A stretch of DNA of 64,000 nt. Origin: Blastocatellia bacterium (GTDB lineage: Bacteria; Acidobacteriota; Blastocatellia; Pyrinomonadales; Pyrinomonadaceae). Of this stretch, positions 1,869-44,981 are shown piece by piece. Where the stretch lies: the NCBI GenBank assembly GCA_003168335.1, contig PMSM01000013.1, positions 186,001 through 250,000 of the forward strand. Reading direction: 5' to 3'. A program made the position numbers and the translations under genes. The stretch's first letter is position 1. Every line of letters starts with the position of its first letter. The notes beneath the pieces were generated by a model. It was not told where the DNA came from and made no database searches. It saw nothing but the letters and a program-made list of their open reading frames with translations.

Positions 1869-3044
1869 ATGGCTTTTTGGCGCAGGAAGAAGGACGAATT
1901 TATCTCGCTTGGTTTGAGCCGTGCAGCCAGTGAGCGCGCCCCCGAAACTCAAACCGGAACTGAAACTGGGATTGAACCTCAACCGGCAATGGTGGCCCGG
2001 GTCGAGCCCGCCGAGGCTGCGCGCGAGGGCCCGGCACCCAGCCCCTGGCAGACTTCAGTCCTCGGTCTCGATCTTTCGATCGAGCAATTGCAGGCCCGGG
2101 AAGCAGCGCTGGAACAGGAACTCTCGGCGCGCTTTCGCCGGGCGGTAGCGGCGACGCGCGAGTCTCTGTCCGAAAAGATCGATACGGTCTTTGCCGGCGC
2201 CAAAAAGATTGATGCGGAGCTGCTGGATGAACTCGAGGAAGCTTTGATCGCCGCGGACATAGGAGTGCCGACCACGATGCACGTGCTGGAAACCGTGCGC
2301 CGGGGGATCAGCCGTAAAGAGATCGACGATGTCGAAAAGCTAAAAGCAGCAATCAAGGCTGAGTTACTTTCAATTCTCCACGCCTCAGAGCAGGGCGGCG
2401 TCGCCTCTGAAACCAGCGTGCCGGAAAACATTGCTCCGTACGTGATGATGATTGTGGGCGTTAACGGCGTGGGAAAAACGACCACAATTGGTAAGCTGGC
2501 CCAACGAATCAAAGCGGAAGGCAACGATGTTCTGATTTGCGCCGCCGATACTTTTCGCGCGGCCGCGAGTGATCAACTGGCGATCTGGGCTGAGCGCACC
2601 GGCGTTCCTTTGATTCAGCAGAAGCAGGGCACGGATCCTGCGGCCGTTTTGTTCGATTCGCTGAAGGCGGCGAAAGCTCGCGGCTCAGACGTGCTGATCG
2701 TGGATACGGCCGGACGGCTACACAACAAATCGAACCTGATGGCGGAATTGGAAAAGATGAAGCGGGTCGCCGGCCGCGAAGTTGAAGGCGCGCCACACGA
2801 AACCCTGCTGGTGGTCGACGCAGTAACTGGCCAGAACGGACTCGAGCAGGCGCGGCAGTTTCTGAAAGTCGCGGGGGTGACCGGCATCGTCTTGACTAAA
2901 CTCGACGGCACGGCCAAAGGCGGTATCGCGGTGGCGATTGCCAAAGAGTTGGGCCTGCCGATTCGCTACGCCGGCATTGGAGAGCAGGTCGACGATCTGG
3001 TTGTATTCGATCCTGAGCAGTACGTGAACAGTCTTTTCAATTAG
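1869..3044 (+). CDS. ftsY: Signal recognition particle receptor FtsY
   Basis: FtsY is the membrane-associated SRP receptor GTPase that docks ribosome-SRP complexes at the SecYEG translocon. The protein has 391 residues: a variable, partly acidic N-terminal region (1-95), the four-helix N domain (about 96-180) and the GTPase G domain. The G domain shows GVNGVGKTT (197-205), DTFRAAA (227-233), DTAGR (279-283) and [10 protein letters not shown] near the C-terminus. The ATG start follows AGGACGGAG. It is monocistronic with its own promoter candidate. The acidic A domain is shorter than in E. coli, as is common outside enterobacteria. Confidence 0.97.
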
Positions 3045-3095
3045 TTCTAATTGCAGTCGCGAGCGATCTGCGAGGACTCAGGACAAAGGCGTTGT

Positions 3096-39133: not shown

Positions 39134-40588
39134 TTATCGCTTCTTGATGATTGATTTGCGACGAATTCTGATCGGCGCCCTGGCCCCAAGTAGCTGCTGG
39201 TGTCGATGGTTGATAATGTAACAGAGTCCTTGATGGGTCAGTCCCAACGTTCTCGCCGCCCGGGTAACACTTCCGCTTGCCTCATCGAGCGCGGCCTTGA
39301 TCAACTCGCTCTCGCGATTGTGCACCTCTTGCTCAAACGACCCGCGCCTGACTCCATTCTCAGTCTTGCTGGTAGCCGTATTTGCGGTAGCTAAGCGAGC
39401 ACATGAGCGAAGACGAGTCATGCTTTCCGCACTTAACTCGTTCCCCAGCCGACGGTCCGCTTCCTGGTACATGCTGCCGATTTCAGGCGGCGAGAGGAAG
39501 CTCTTCAACTCTTCGAGGATCGTGAGAAAAACCGCCCCGGAAAGTTGTACGTCGCCGGCCGTTTCCGCAATATGCGCCGCACGCTTCAAGGTACCGAGTG
39601 CCGACGGATAACGGCCCATGCGGGCTTGAGCTACGCCTTGTGTTTCCAGAGCATCCGCGAGCAGCGATTGCTCGTCGCCGTTTTCAAGCGCCGACGCGGA
39701 TACGAAGGCGAGCTTTTCGGCGTCGATATAGCGCTGCTGGTCAATGAAGACGCGCGCCCGCGTGTCATTAACCTGAGCGGCGGTGCCAACGTCGCCCAAC
39801 TCAGTGAAAGTACGACGGGCTCGCTCCAGATGGTCGAGCGCTGCGTCATAACGACCGAGATCGCGAAGAATGTTTCCGATATTGTTTTCGACGCGGGCGA
39901 AGTAGCGCTGGTGATTTGCCTGCTCAAAATGGACGCTTGCCGCGGTGTTCTCGATTAGGGCGCGATCCAGGTTGTCGGCCCCGCCCATCCTCCTGAGGAT
40001 AAGTGCTCGTTGCATGTGATAGCAGCCATGGGCCGCGTCATCATCAACCTGATCCAATAGAGGCGCTGCCTGATCGAGAAGGGCGAGAGCGTCGCCGAAG
40101 CGATTCGAGGAGCACTCGACAGTAGTGCTGCGCGCCAGGATGCGAACCTTGTTCGCGGGGTCGGCGGCTTTCACGATAGCTTCGCGGAACCAAACGCGCG
40201 CCTCGTCCATGGCGCCTTCACGCCAGTAACAGAGGGCGAGATCGGACTGGGCTTCGGCGATCTTCTCTTGATCGCCGAGCGACTCAAAGGCACGGATGCT
40301 TTCGCTAATGAGGTCCTTGGCAAATCCCTGGGCGCCCGGAACCTGGCTCGAACTGCCCAGCCAACCTGAGAGCGCGCCCGCGCGCAATAACACCTCTGCC
40401 TGCTCCGTGGCTGGCAAGCCTTCGATCTCCGGACGGTTGCCGACACCACCCCATAATTCACCAAGAGCTTCGCGCGCGGCTTCATAGTTTCCCGCGCTCA
40501 TTAGTTTCTTCGCTACCGCGCATCGTTGAGCCACGTCAGCGTTAACCCGGACCGGCTCTGGCAGTTTGGTTAAAGTTTTTGTCTCCAT
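39134..40588 (-). CDS. TPR-repeat cytoplasmic protein with C-terminal Fis-type HTH
   Basis: The 484 residues have no signal peptide. About 400 N-terminal residues form a solenoid of TPR-like helical pairs (for example AEAQSDLALCYWREGAMDEARVW and ARVENNIGNILRDLGRYDAA). The C-terminus (about 425-465) is a Fis-family HTH: IKAALDEASGSVTRAARTLG, LTHQGLCYIINHRH, followed by a basic tail (RIRRKSIIKKR). The arrangement suits a regulator that senses a peptide or protein with the TPR part and binds DNA with the HTH. The start follows GAGGAAGG. It is divergent from the small secreted peptide (155 bp). Confidence 0.85.
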   Translation of the reverse strand: METKTLTKLPEPVRVNADVAQRCAVAKKLMSAGNYEAAREALGELWGGVGNRPEIEGLPATEQAEVLLRAGALSGWLGSSSQVPGAQGFAKDLISESIRAFESLGDQEKIAEAQSDLALCYWREGAMDEARVWFREAIVKAADPANKVRILARSTTVECSSNRFGDALALLDQAAPLLDQVDDDAAHGCYHMQRALILRRMGGADNLDRALIENTAASVHFEQANHQRYFARVENNIGNILRDLGRYDAALDHLERARRTFTELGDVGTAAQVNDTRARVFIDQQRYIDAEKLAFVSASALENGDEQSLLADALETQGVAQARMGRYPSALGTLKRAAHIAETAGDVQLSGAVFLTILEELKSFLSPPEIGSMYQEADRRLGNELSAESMTRLRSCARLATANTATSKTENGVRRGSFEQEVHNRESELIKAALDEASGSVTRAARTLGLTHQGLCYIINHRHQQLLGARAPIRIRRKSIIKKR

Positions 40589-40645
40589 TTGACCTTCCTC
40601 AACTTAGAGTACCCCGCGAGTCAAGCAACCCGCTTTGCGCCCAGA

Positions 40646-40717
40646 ACTGCTAGCAGTGCTATTATGCGCGCGCTCAATAACATCTGTCGGTCGCTGGGCG
40701 CCGTTAGGTCAGCGACC
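40646..40717 (+). promoter_or_regulatory. Palindromes and -10 box between TPR/Fis regulator and peptide gene
   Basis: ACTGCTAGCAGT (40646-40657) is a perfect 12-bp palindrome. TGCTATTAT at 40657-40665 is an extended -10 box. The palindrome thus lies in the spacer, where a bound regulator would act. GGTCGCTG (40689) and CAGCGACC (40710) form an 8-bp stem in the predicted leader, ahead of the peptide start. Confidence 0.5.
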
Positions 40718-40743
40718 TTTCAATGAAAAGGACGAAAAACACA

Positions 40744-40980
40744 ATGAAAGAACTTAGACGATTGGTCGCGATCTCCATTCTCATGGTCTCCCTGTCAGGC
40801 GTTGCCCTGGCGGACGGAGGAGACACCCAAGGTCCACCGCTCCCGCCACCGCCGCCGGCAGCGGAATGCACTGCGGACTGCTCGAACTCCGCCGTAACCT
40901 CCACGACACCAACGTCGGATGTGACCACCGACCTGGCAAACAACGTCATTACCTGGCTCGTGGAAGCCATCCTCTACTAG
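40744..40980 (+). CDS. Small secreted Pro-rich peptide, function unknown
   Basis: The 78-residue product begins MKELRRLVAISILMVSLSGV and has a signal peptide ending ALA; cleavage leaves a mature part of about 54 residues. It contains a GPPLPPPPPAA stretch, the pair CTADC, a Thr/Ser-rich part and a hydrophobic end (LANNVITWLVEAILY). The start at 40744 has AAGGA 11 bases upstream; ATG at 40723 has no ribosome-binding site. It is divergent from the TPR/Fis gene. I infer a signalling or toxic peptide, or a tiny envelope structural protein; no family is recognised. Confidence 0.65.
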   Translation: MKELRRLVAISILMVSLSGVALADGGDTQGPPLPPPPPAAECTADCSNSAVTSTTPTSDVTTDLANNVITWLVEAILY

Positions 40981-41319: not shown

Positions 41320-43065
41320 TCAGGTAGTTGCCGCCGGGATTCCGTCAGGGGCGATGTCGATGGCGGCGCCGATATGATGCAACTGACTAGCGTCGATCAT
41401 ATTCAACCCTCTTTCTTCGCGCACGGTCTTGAAGCCCGGCAGAATCTCGTCTACCGGTGCATTCATTACACCCTTGCTCCTCTTGTACCCGGTGAAATCG
41501 AGGTAGAGATGCTTGCGCATGAAACGATCAGGAACGCCGGCAAACCGGTATAGCGGGTATTTGATACCGTTGCCGAAAAGCTTGCGCCCAAGCAAGTAGT
41601 AATAGAGCGGCACCCCGAGCGAGAATTTCATCGATGCATTCGATTTCCCATGCCAGAAATGCAGGTTGTATTTCCAGCAGGTGTAGAAGAACTCCCACTG
41701 CAGGTCGGTCATCTCGATGAGCTTCGCGCTGTCCTTCTGCTGCATCCGCGTATTCTCGAGCGGAACGAAGAACGTTGGGACGAAGGTACCCTTGGCATCG
41801 CGCAGATCGTAAAGCAGGTTGAGCGACTCCCTGGTATCTGCATCAGTTTCTCCCGGCAGTCCGATGATGAAAGTGCAGAATGGGAACCAGTTGTGCTTGT
41901 TCAGGGTTTCCATGCCCTTGAGCACCACGTCGCGCCACTGATGGGCCTTATAAGGATACGCTTTGCCCTTCATGAAAATATCGAAGAGGCGCGCGCTGCC
42001 GGTTTCCAGTCCGATGATTGGATCCGTCATGCGGTGATCGGGATCCGTCGACTCTTTATGCTGCACATGCGAATAAGGCACAATCAAAGGGGTAAGTCGC
42101 TCGATGATAGTTGGATCCTTGACGACCGGCGCCATCGTGATATGCGACGTCTGCAGGGTTTCAATTCCGGGAACGCTCTTGACGCTCTTCAGCATAGTTT
42201 CGAGCGCTGGAATATTTGTTTCGAAGTTCGCTCCCTGCTCATAGAGGAACATGTCTTCGGTAGCGAGCAGGATCTCCGTGGCACCTTCACGCGCGTTGAC
42301 GTGTACGCTTTCCATGATGTGCTCTAGCGGGAACGACCGTCCCACTTTTGTTGCCGGACCGCAGAACTGGCAACCGCGCCCGCACCCGCGAGTAATTTCG
42401 ACCACACCAAATGTCGACCGATGCCGGACCACGGGGATTTCTTCCACGGTCGGCTGCATACTCTTTGGTACTTTGATGATGCGCTCGAGTGTGGGATCTC
42501 CGGCCATCATTCGCTTGAACATATCACTGAAGACTCGTTCAATCTCGCCGTCGATCAGGTAATCGACGTTGAATTCGTCCAGACGGTTTGCACGTTCCAG
42601 TTGCCACGCTCCCGGACCGCCGATGACTATTTTCGGTTGGAACTTCTTGATAACTGGATGCGTGACGATCTTTAGAAACTCAGCAGCATTTATAGGAATC
42701 AGGTTCTTACCGGCGATTTTTGAATAAACATCGGTGGCGTATGAGATGCCCAGCGGATTATGAGCGTGGATAGCGATTACTTTGGTCTCAGGCCCGACAA
42801 ACTTCTCGAGGTTGTCCAGATAACAAACAACCACGTCTTCTTCCGAGTACTCGCGGAGCAGCAACGTCTCAACCATGCGCAGTCCATTGGGCACGTACTT
42901 GGCGCGCCCATCAGGCCATGATTCATTGATCAATGAGGTGGGATTTATCCACTTATGGCCGTACTTCGCCGGAATAGTTGCGGACAACATCTGTTGCCAG
43001 ATGCTGTGCTTCCATTCACTCGCCTCACTTTGTGACGCGGTCAAAACGATTTTAGGTGAACCCAA
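41320..43065 (-). CDS. B12-binding-type radical SAM enzyme, substrate unknown
   Basis: The 581-residue protein has a Rossmann-like N-terminal region (about 1-200) with KIVIGGPGAW near 145-154, the usual end of a cobalamin-binding fold; the classical DxHxxG is not evident. The radical SAM cluster motif is RGCGRGCQFC, with C228, C232 and C235. A TIM-barrel core (about 215-430) and a long C-terminal region follow. Relatives methylate or rearrange lipids, pigments and peptides. Its family is not recognised more closely. It is divergent from the second radical SAM gene over 371 bp. Confidence 0.85.
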   Translation of the reverse strand: MGSPKIVLTASQSEASEWKHSIWQQMLSATIPAKYGHKWINPTSLINESWPDGRAKYVPNGLRMVETLLLREYSEEDVVVCYLDNLEKFVGPETKVIAIHAHNPLGISYATDVYSKIAGKNLIPINAAEFLKIVTHPVIKKFQPKIVIGGPGAWQLERANRLDEFNVDYLIDGEIERVFSDMFKRMMAGDPTLERIIKVPKSMQPTVEEIPVVRHRSTFGVVEITRGCGRGCQFCGPATKVGRSFPLEHIMESVHVNAREGATEILLATEDMFLYEQGANFETNIPALETMLKSVKSVPGIETLQTSHITMAPVVKDPTIIERLTPLIVPYSHVQHKESTDPDHRMTDPIIGLETGSARLFDIFMKGKAYPYKAHQWRDVVLKGMETLNKHNWFPFCTFIIGLPGETDADTRESLNLLYDLRDAKGTFVPTFFVPLENTRMQQKDSAKLIEMTDLQWEFFYTCWKYNLHFWHGKSNASMKFSLGVPLYYYLLGRKLFGNGIKYPLYRFAGVPDRFMRKHLYLDFTGYKRSKGVMNAPVDEILPGFKTVREERGLNMIDASQLHHIGAAIDIAPDGIPAATT

Positions 43066-43436: not shown

Positions 43437-44981
43437 ATGAAGATTCTATTGTACAACCCGGATAATGGCGTCACGAAAAACTTCATGCCGCACCTGTGGA
43501 TGTTTCTGCTCAGGGCCCTCACGCCCCCAGGCCACGAAGTCGTACTGATTGACGGCAATGCGAAGCCACTGAGCGATCAGGAGCTGGTTCGCTTTATCCA
43601 GGAGCAGGAAATCGGGCTGGTGGGCATCGGGGCGATGACCCGCATGGTGCAGAAGGCCTACCGAGTGGCCGACGCGGTTCGCGCCGCGGGTGTGCCGGTC
43701 GTAATGGGCGGTCCGCATGTGACCGAACTCCCGGATGAAGCGCTGGGGCGAGACGGTGGACCAAAGCATGCAGATGCTGTCGCGCTCGGCGAGGCAGATG
43801 AGACTTGGCCGAAGATCGTCGAGGACGCCGCGCGCGGCCAGCTCAAAGAGATCTATGAGCCCGTCGACGAGTTGGGCAAGGAACAAAAACCGAGTCTGCA
43901 GCCTTATCCGGTTATCCCCTGGGACACTATCGACCTTGAACAGTTCAATTTCGTTCCCAAGATCGTTCGCCGCTTTACCCAGCGGTATGGAACCGGGGTC
44001 AGCTATTTCAATACCATTCCGATGGAATCGGGGCGTGGCTGTCCCTACGGCTGCGAGTTCTGCACCGTAACCGGATTCTTTGGTGATCAGATTCGTTTTC
44101 GCTCAAACGAAAGCGTAGTGAACGAATTGCTGCTGCTCAAAAAACGGGCTCAGAAAGATCGCGGCAAGATTTCAATCTTCTTCATTGATGACAACTTTGC
44201 GATCAATATCAAACGCACAAAGTCGCTGCTGCGCGATATCATCGCCGCCGATGCACAGTTGCCGTGGATAGCCCAGATCAGCGCTAACCTTCTTCGTGAT
44301 GAAGAGCTGGTCGATCTCATGGCAGACTCTGGCTGTAAATGGGTCTTCATCGGCATGGAATCAATCGATCCGTTGAATCTCGCCGGTGTGAATAAGAGCT
44401 TCAATAAGCCCGCCGAGTACGCCCCGGTGCTCAATCGGCTGGCGCAGCGTAACATCTATGCGATCACGTCATTCATCTTCGGCCTGGACAACGATACCCC
44501 GGGCGTGGCTGACCGCACGCTGGAACAGATCGCAGATTGGCCGCCGGGAATGCCGGTCTTCAGCCCGCTCGTTCCACTTCCAGGCACGCCGACGTACAAG
44601 AAACTCGGAGCCGAAGGACGCCTGACGCGACCAAAACACTGGATGAGTTTTGCTCACAACCAAATGGCCCACACGCCACTTAAGATGAGTATTCCCGAGG
44701 CCCAGATCGAGCTGGACAGGGCATGGATGAAGTCCTACAGCCCGAAGAATAACGAGCGCGCCATCGATTGGTTCAAGGGGCAGTCGATCAATGATCAGAT
44801 CATGCACATGATCATGCGCATGTTTTTCCGCGGCATTTATTTCCCGCAGCGGAATGCGCGTGTCTGGACCAAACTACTTGCCCAAAACCACCGGCCCATC
44901 CTGCGACTGGTTAAAGAGGGTTACGGAAAATACCGCGAACAGCGACGCGGCGCGTCTACGGTGCCGGCTGAGATTAGTTAG
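43437..44981 (+). CDS. B12-binding-domain radical SAM protein, BchE/HpnR-like layout
   Basis: The 514-residue protein has a cobalamin-binding N-terminal domain (about 1-140, GIGAMTRMVQKA and VVMGGPHVTELPDEA), then RGCPYGCEFC with C202, C206 and C209, and FFIDDNFAINIKR in the barrel. A C-terminal region of about 150 residues is rich in aromatic and basic residues. The domain order is that of enzymes that alter hopanoids, carotenoids, Mg-porphyrins or peptides. Substrate not readable. It may work with the divergent relative. The start follows AGGAAACC. Confidence 0.88.
   Translation: MKILLYNPDNGVTKNFMPHLWMFLLRALTPPGHEVVLIDGNAKPLSDQELVRFIQEQEIGLVGIGAMTRMVQKAYRVADAVRAAGVPVVMGGPHVTELPDEALGRDGGPKHADAVALGEADETWPKIVEDAARGQLKEIYEPVDELGKEQKPSLQPYPVIPWDTIDLEQFNFVPKIVRRFTQRYGTGVSYFNTIPMESGRGCPYGCEFCTVTGFFGDQIRFRSNESVVNELLLLKKRAQKDRGKISIFFIDDNFAINIKRTKSLLRDIIAADAQLPWIAQISANLLRDEELVDLMADSGCKWVFIGMESIDPLNLAGVNKSFNKPAEYAPVLNRLAQRNIYAITSFIFGLDNDTPGVADRTLEQIADWPPGMPVFSPLVPLPGTPTYKKLGAEGRLTRPKHWMSFAHNQMAHTPLKMSIPEAQIELDRAWMKSYSPKNNERAIDWFKGQSINDQIMHMIMRMFFRGIYFPQRNARVWTKLLAQNHRPILRLVKEGYGKYREQRRGASTVPAEIS

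Follow-up and report, generated by a model that had tools for sequence, protein, structure and literature searches.

A probable peptide-signalling pair of a TPR receptor and a secreted precursor, with exchangeable receptor outputs, in the Pyrinomonadaceae

The stretch analysed here, referred to below as the window, comprises 64,000 nucleotides of contig PMSM01000013.1 (positions 186,001 to 250,000) from the Blastocatellia bacterium assembly GCA_003168335.1. In it, a gene for a tetratricopeptide repeat (TPR) protein ending in a Fis-type helix-turn-helix (HTH) lies divergent from a gene for a small, predicted secreted precursor. The two genes are likely to encode a peptide signal and its cytoplasmic TPR receptor, working in a manner similar to the RRNPP systems of Firmicutes, in a diderm host, with exchangeable C-terminal outputs and with the signal located N-terminally in the mature precursor. 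The pairing of the TPR sensor with a secreted peptide is real and family-wide; the family is large, and its peptides and receptors seem to have co-evolved. Sensor and peptide form the constant part of this family, while the output varies.

The features of the pair, with positions in the window, are:

39134..40588, minus strand: TPR-Fis regulator of 484 aa, the proposed intracellular peptide receptor (open reading frame (ORF); Pfam TPR_12 and HTH_8; AlphaFold2 (AF2) model)
39371..40411, minus strand: TPR superhelix, residues 60-406, the proposed ligand-binding sensor (AF2 helices; VIA-align matches to LGN, Rap and NprR)
39182..39346, minus strand: C-terminal Fis-type HTH, residues 415-469, the DNA-binding output (PF02954 match, AF2 helices)
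39989..40015, minus strand: residues 192-200 (M192, Q193, L196, R199, R200), covarying with positions 2, 4 and 5 of the signal unit (mutual information, residue tables, tree-aware test, groove positions)
40109..40123, minus strand: residues 156-160 (T156, C159, S160), covarying with unit position 4 (mutual information; for residue 159 also residue tables and a tree-aware test)
40232..40234, minus strand: residue L119, covarying with unit position 6 (mutual information, residue tables, tree-aware test)
40589..40743, no strand: divergent intergenic region common to both genes, 155 nt between the start codons
40625..40638, no strand: dyad GCAA-N6-TTGC, candidate Fis operator (motif scan of intergenic regions)
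40744..40980, plus strand: predicted secreted precursor of 78 aa, the proposed signal precursor (ORF, family pairing)
40744..40812, plus strand: signal peptide, residues 1-23, with cleavage between ALA and DGG (judged by eye from the sequence)
40819..40836, plus strand: signal unit GDTQGP, the sole copy in the window precursor (anchor scan)
40936..40977, plus strand: hydrophobic C-terminal segment ANNVITWLVEAILY, for which an anchor or processing role is queried (sequence)

A preliminary description of this locus, made from the sequence alone, had named the gene pair, the regulator domains and the signal peptide. The ORF indeed encodes several TPRs followed by a Fis HTH (PF02954 at residues 426-455, E 2.2e-6, 27.7 bits against the curated Pfam cut-off of 22), and across the 155 nt it faces a precursor with the described signal peptide, Pro-rich stretch, two Cys and hydrophobic C-terminus. 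The start of the precursor is best set at 40744, as its relatives open with MKxLxRL and AAAAGGA lies 11 nt upstream. None of the six precursors tried (the one in the window and five others) reached a Pfam or NCBIfam cut-off.

In addition, the preliminary description had made its reading depend on a conserved pairing in related genomes and on purifying selection in the precursor frame, and both were found. A search of the own genome returned five TPR-Fis genes with E-values from 0 to 6e-101 (next match 3e-4). In three of them a receiver domain follows the HTH, as seen by alignment and, for L002, which was scanned with Pfam, as a Response_reg match. All five are faced, at a gap of 123-159 nt, by a small ORF on the opposite strand that encodes a signal peptide and a hydrophobic C-terminus. 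The loci of relatives yielded 143 distinct TPR genes that include the N-terminus, 140 of them with at least 400 nt upstream, and a filter was applied for a divergent ORF of 35-130 aa with a signal peptide (recognised from hydrophobicity by a simple rule, and by eye) and a hydrophobic C-terminus, starting within 330 nt. The filter picked out a precursor for 125 of the 140 genes (median gap 151 nt), compared with 11/140 in a same-strand control with a similar filter and 7/114 for control genes, that is, other ORFs of at least 250 aa in the longer loci and the window. Five further precursors lie 337-502 nt away, at L182, L184-L186 and the first gene of L183 (the one at L184 running beyond the 700 nt examined), and bring the pairing to 130/140. 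At two genes with shorter upstream sequence (L083, L166) the precursor is cut by the contig end, resulting in 132/143, while at L044 the upstream sequence is too short for the pairing count. In nine close precursor pairs, some of which share members, the ratio of nonsynonymous to synonymous differences (pN/pS) is 0.26 for the signal peptide (residues 2-22) and 0.39 for the mature part. Phylum-wide, with only three candidates scored per genome, 9/396 genomes including the own one match at E <= 1e-40, and all of them belong to the window's own family, Pyrinomonadaceae by record titles. Within this family, 63/119 genomes and 27/29 genera match at E <= 1e-25; at most ten candidates were scored per genome, so that copy numbers represent lower bounds. 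The 24 named loci derive from metagenome-assembled genomes titled Pyrinomonadaceae, Blastocatellia, uncultured Pyrinomonas, Acidobacteria or Acidobacteriota.

Directly behind the signal peptide, the precursors carry a short unit, typically G-x-[IM]-x-[TS]-[GP], with G, D/E, I/M, H/G/Q/P, T/S and P/G as the commonest residues in order. It can be repeated, for instance as GDMGTG x4 (L133), GDIGVG x4 (L135), GNITSR[TA] x5 (L184) and GTISTT[KR][AT] x5 (L185), and a 7-mer repeated at 6/7 or better was found in 49/125 precursors, compared with 0.1 in shuffles. Among the 343 codons compared between repeat copies, 150 differ synonymously and 22 nonsynonymously, the latter count being capped by the choice of similar copies. 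These synonymous differences rule out recent DNA slippage as the origin of the repeats and show that they are old. Units were placed with a loose anchor, G-x-[IMLVT], which detects a unit in 130/132 precursors and at least two anchors in 112, but is weak by itself, as 3 of 7 control ORFs also carry it. Ala precedes the first unit in 86 of the 130. Agreement between copies within a precursor, at non-anchor positions, amounts to 0.448, compared with a permuted mean of 0.161 and a maximum of 0.209 in 2000 permutations. Where the first units of related precursors differ, both later copies keep the residue of their own precursor in 836/1723 position-pairs, and one later copy carries the other precursor's residue in 157. 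The tested position was disregarded in the choice of later copies, which had to match elsewhere, and the pairs overlap and are not independent. Finally, paralogues were never found to share a first unit (0/146 pairs, in 13 genomes that each have three or more mapped pairs, 89 pairs being mapped to genomes), and such differing units would make separate channels.

The link between the unit and the receptor comes from covariation, calculated as corrected mutual information over 126 of the 132 pairs. The top-ranked pairs join unit position 2 with receptor residue 199, 4 with 159, 5 with 192, 2 with 200 and 6 with 119. Residue tables for these positions make chemical sense. An acidic residue (D/E) at unit position 2 is accompanied by R/K199 in 63/65 pairs and a non-acidic one in 13/61, seven of these 13 being N with K199, while Q at position 2 goes with E199 in 5/6. 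H4 is found with E193 in 20/23 and T5 with N192 in 39/51; P6 occurs with L/I/V119 in 51/54 and G6 with Y/W in 22/40. D4 always occurs with R159 (5/5), yet G4 is found with R159 as well (12/21). The window pair agrees with these tables, GDTQGP standing alongside R199, Q193 and L119. A Pagel-type test of position 2 against residue 199 gave a likelihood ratio (LR) of 74.1 (p 3e-15) on a tree built without residues 180-205, in which residues 159 and 119 were kept; none of 85 control columns, fitted with fewer starts than this pair, exceeded 20.5 (median 6.8). For four more residue pairs, which had no separate controls, the LR was 40.7, 31.2, 26.7 and 30.1. By parsimony, the acidic state at position 2 changed 24 times and the basic state at 199 changed 22 times. 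Each of the top five unit-covarying columns occupies one of positions 2, 5, 9, 12 and 13 in TPR helix A, where 0.46 would be expected (p 5e-6). These are the usual concave ligand positions, and 8 of the top 15 columns lie there. The hydrophobic C-terminal tail is not favoured as a signal, given that its best position scores 0.186, against 0.393 for the unit, and that none of its top 20 covarying columns lies at groove positions; it may have another role. Where the preliminary description had proposed the mature peptide or its C-terminal fragments for binding tests, the short, often repeated unit near the mature N-terminus is the likely signal. The interaction of regulator and peptide that it had put forward gains support from this residue-level covariation, and the evolutionary evidence that the unit would bind the TPR groove is strong.

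In regard to the mechanism, the precursor would leave the cytoplasm through Sec and lose its signal peptide to signal peptidase, which would place a unit at or near the new N-terminus, with further copies behind it in many relatives. Proteases could then free the unit, which would re-enter the cell, probably through an oligopeptide permease, and would bind the concave groove of neighbouring TPRs with position 2 near residue 199, position 5 near 192, position 4 near 159 and 193, and position 6 near 119, as suggested by the covariation. Binding would switch the C-terminal output, and in the window the Fis HTH would probably act on the dyad in the common promoter region and elsewhere. Two OppA-like (SBP_bac_5) genes in the own genome only make re-import possible; for Pyrinomonas methylaliphatogenes, passages of PMC4644332 describe a Gram-negative wall, Bam and oppABCDF. 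If the proposed mechanism is correct, a major two-membrane soil phylum uses the TPR-peptide principle, with outputs reaching two-component and cyclic di-GMP signalling, and this would open up the social biology of Acidobacteriota. Explicit swaps can also be predicted from the covariation, for instance of an acidic residue at unit position 2 and R/K199, which opens receptor specificity to direct tests.

Covariation and pairing could, alternatively, be explained without any importer or protease if the TPR protein served as a secretion monitor. It would then bind the precursor before exit, and slowed export would fill the groove with units and alter the output, without release and re-import. The receptor has no signal peptide and the unit sits close behind that of the precursor, which also agrees with a monitor. 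Nevertheless, we regard this explanation as unlikely, since it does not account for the multiple copies of the unit, nor for the absence of a common unit from all 146 paralogue pairs; a monitor of export needs no private code.

The same TPR sensor is combined with several C-terminal outputs, and Pfam identified Fis, Fis with receiver, sigma54 AAA+ with Fis, GGDEF-EAL, and histidine kinase (HK) with receiver (REC). Some relatives, in which Pfam shows TPRs alone, could in our reading carry an S24-like C-terminus. The Fis HTH noted in the preliminary description is the output of the window regulator, but across the family it is one output among several. Precursor pairing extends over the output types, with 56/62 for Fis, 37/39 for Fis-REC, 21/22 for AAA-Fis, 2/2 for AAA without Fis seen, 5/5 for S24-like, 3/3 for HK, 1/1 for HK-REC, 1/1 for GGDEF-EAL and 6/8 for none or truncated, according to phmmer labels that are imperfect: the unpaired L163 is labelled AAA-Fis although Pfam shows only TPR and HTH_8, and of the three kinase genes labelled HK, both that were scanned with Pfam (L184, L185) have a receiver. 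Kinase-type outputs at L183-L186 have longer gaps (376-502 nt), and their precursors are among those with the most regular tandem repeats, holding 4-5 units. At L103:1471-3516 (minus strand), an N-terminal Trans_reg_C winged helix is fused ahead of the TPR sensor and no precursor was found beside the gene, which makes L103 a possible orphan receptor.

Apart from ribosome-binding sites, the strongest signal common to the intergenic regions is the dyad GCAA-N6-TTGC, often in the form GCAAG-N4-CTTGC. It was found in 16/56 Fis, 2/37 Fis-REC and 7/21 AAA-Fis intergenic regions (0.2, 0.1 and 0.02 in shuffles, respectively) and in none of the seven examined regions without Fis (HK-REC 1, S24-like 5, GGDEF-EAL 1; the three labelled HK were left out). 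TTGCA boxes had hinted at sigma54 promoters before the precursors, but TGGC-N-TTGC combinations do not exceed shuffles and the boxes resolve into the dyad. A candidate operator between divergent genes would also suit an exported effector, such as a surface, antimicrobial or envelope peptide, whose gene is controlled by a TPR regulator sensing something else, and divergent regulator-target pairs are generally common. This explanation is nonetheless improbable, as it conflicts with the residue-level covariation of unit and groove (tree-aware LR 74) and with the pairing to outputs that do not bind DNA, for example HK and GGDEF-EAL. Least credible of all is a toxin-antitoxin-like pair in which the TPR protein binds and neutralises a harmful hydrophobic tail: the hydrophobic C-terminus and the tight pairing would fit, but the groove covaries with the unit and not with the tail, and the outputs include transcription and second-messenger domains.

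Several observations speak against a peptide signal read by a TPR receptor, or against parts of the evidence presented for it. No precursor was found for ten of the 140 genes (L029, L098, L103, L120, L131, L141, L146, L163, L180 and the second gene of L183). Of these, L120, L131, L141 and L146 encode TPR-Fis proteins whose HTH is similar (GF[KR]HHQTFVALLNNRHK); within 700 nt no precursor was found at any of them, and it may have been lost, moved or missed. The loose anchor misplaces some first units (e.g., L005, L170, L186), and the copy agreement of 0.448 has to be compared with 0.361 for the nearest related precursor, own copies winning in 54 of 112 cases and losing in 40. A neutral N at position 2 is found with K199 in 7/10 pairs. 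The five residue pairs tested on the tree had been chosen from a ranking of pairs, and the ranking was already known when the groove register was fixed by means of conserved anchors. No sigma54 promoter was detected in the 16 AAA-type intergenic regions. The window pair itself, with a single unit copy, is among the least typical of the family in its precursor. Its regulator has a syntenic orthologue in genome G025, the closest of the relatives compared (58.8% identity), where no precursor was found in the upstream gap of ~600 nt; despite this absence, residues 192, 193, 199 and 200 are those of the window. In the window, two radical SAM genes follow beyond the precursor (41320-43065, minus strand, and 43437-44981, plus strand, the second with a B12-binding domain), and only the second was found beside the orthologous regulator. 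Since the first is missing there too, a larger loss or gain at the G025 locus is possible. Another TPR-Fis gene of G025 (L253) does have a precursor.

In the AF2 model (20 sequences, mean predicted local distance difference test score 86.9), the regulator consists of helical repeats and, at the C-terminus, a region of helices with the HTH. The first structural match in both the Foldseek and the VIA-align lists is LGN (4wnd; Z 29.0, root-mean-square deviation 3.9 over 317 in VIA-align), and the best bacterial matches listed by VIA-align are Rap-CSF (4gyo; Z 23.1, 6.4 Å over 347) and, at Z 22.7, RapI and NprR (4i1a, 5dbk), spanning about residues 56-450. No RRNPP entry appears among the best 50 Foldseek matches listed, and the profile A3 reaches RapI at E 4.4e-6 as the last of 22, amid generic TPR proteins. 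A TPR fold in common does not show kinship.

The parallel with RRNPP(A) systems (Rap-Phr, NprR-NprX, PlcR-PapR, Rgg-SHP), drawn in the preliminary description, remains in that the TPR gene adjoins one for a short Sec-type precursor (signal peptide by the hydrophobicity rule and by eye), and fails for the N-terminal HTH, the C-terminal pheromone and the Firmicutes host. RRNPP(A) receptors have an N-terminal Xre-type HTH, absent in Rap; the only HTH found in the window regulator is the C-terminal Fis type, and in the family the C-terminal output is exchangeable, comprising Fis, REC, sigma54 AAA+, HK and GGDEF-EAL. RRNPP(A) hosts are Firmicutes or their mobile elements, whereas the relatives found here are titled as groups of the Acidobacteriota, a diderm phylum. 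Most RRNPP propeptides have the mature pheromone at the C-terminus, as stated in a part of PMC9765709, while here, judged by unit position, the spacer and the hydrophobic tail come after a repeated, covarying unit near the predicted mature N-terminus. With respect to the receptor length of 250-500 aa given in a section of PMC10075063, the window regulator (484 aa) lies inside and many relatives (620-883 aa) outside. A TPR fold, as in the peptide-binding TPR domain of these receptors, is present, and its predicted groove covaries with the peptide. Term searches of the main texts of PMC10075063 and PMC9765709 did not return the word Acidobacteria. In published abstracts, intracellular sensing of secreted linear peptides via TPR receptors is described for Gram-positive bacteria, and no peptide signalling by TPR receptors in Acidobacteriota was found among the open-licence literature matches listed. 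As it departs from RRNPP in several of these traits, the family would be classed apart, as working like RRNPP but not as a member of it. It is somewhat more probable than the opposite that it represents a phylogenetically separate diderm peptide-signalling superfamily, with precursors of one to five copies, divergent TPR receptors, interchangeable outputs (transcription, phosphorelay, cyclic di-GMP), five or more private co-evolving channels in one genome, and a readable ligand-receptor code.

Other known systems share single traits with the pair. Some Phr precursors repeat the autoinducer, and receptor and peptide diversify together, according to passages of PMC5199041 (Even-Tov 2016); as here, there are several identical or near-identical short peptides per precursor. 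The passages describe such repeats in multiple phr genes, alongside single-copy ones, whereas in our set a 7-mer repeat is present in 49/125 precursors, with up to five copies that start directly behind the signal peptide. NtrC-type sigma54 activators and Fis-HTH proteins resemble the window regulator in HTH_8, and relative L023 adds Sigma54_activat (Pfam); the window regulator differs in its TPR superhelix as input domain and in the AAA+ sigma54 interaction domain, which a Pfam scan did not find. The yeast alpha-factor precursor is likewise secreted and contains its short signal several times over, but is eukaryotic and acts through a G-protein-coupled receptor, and is mentioned as an analogy only.

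In other families of the class, no TPR match is stronger than E 3e-32, and most of the matches lie in proteins of ~1000 aa or more. None of 22 loci from these families contains a precursor-like ORF with a repeat, the loci covering only 2-4 kb around the TPR match, and four contain a short ORF meeting the loose anchor only. The evidence for absence of the system outside the family is weak, because such short loci may not reach the gene start. Eight more loci from distant genera within the family, excluded from the counts of 140 and 143, were also inspected, and the filter detected no precursor at three of them (L219, L236, L237) and a precursor at five (L220, L221, L222, L223, L235). L223 holds two similar tandem precursors (2563-2784 and 2837-3046, both with CGEMNSGN) beside one TPR gene, a possible step in signal duplication. 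On contig G478:C53 (L038, L138, L139; ~3.8-29 kb), four TPR-Fis genes of the family, all on the same strand, lie within ~25 kb, and receptor-peptide pairs appear to have been amplified locally there.

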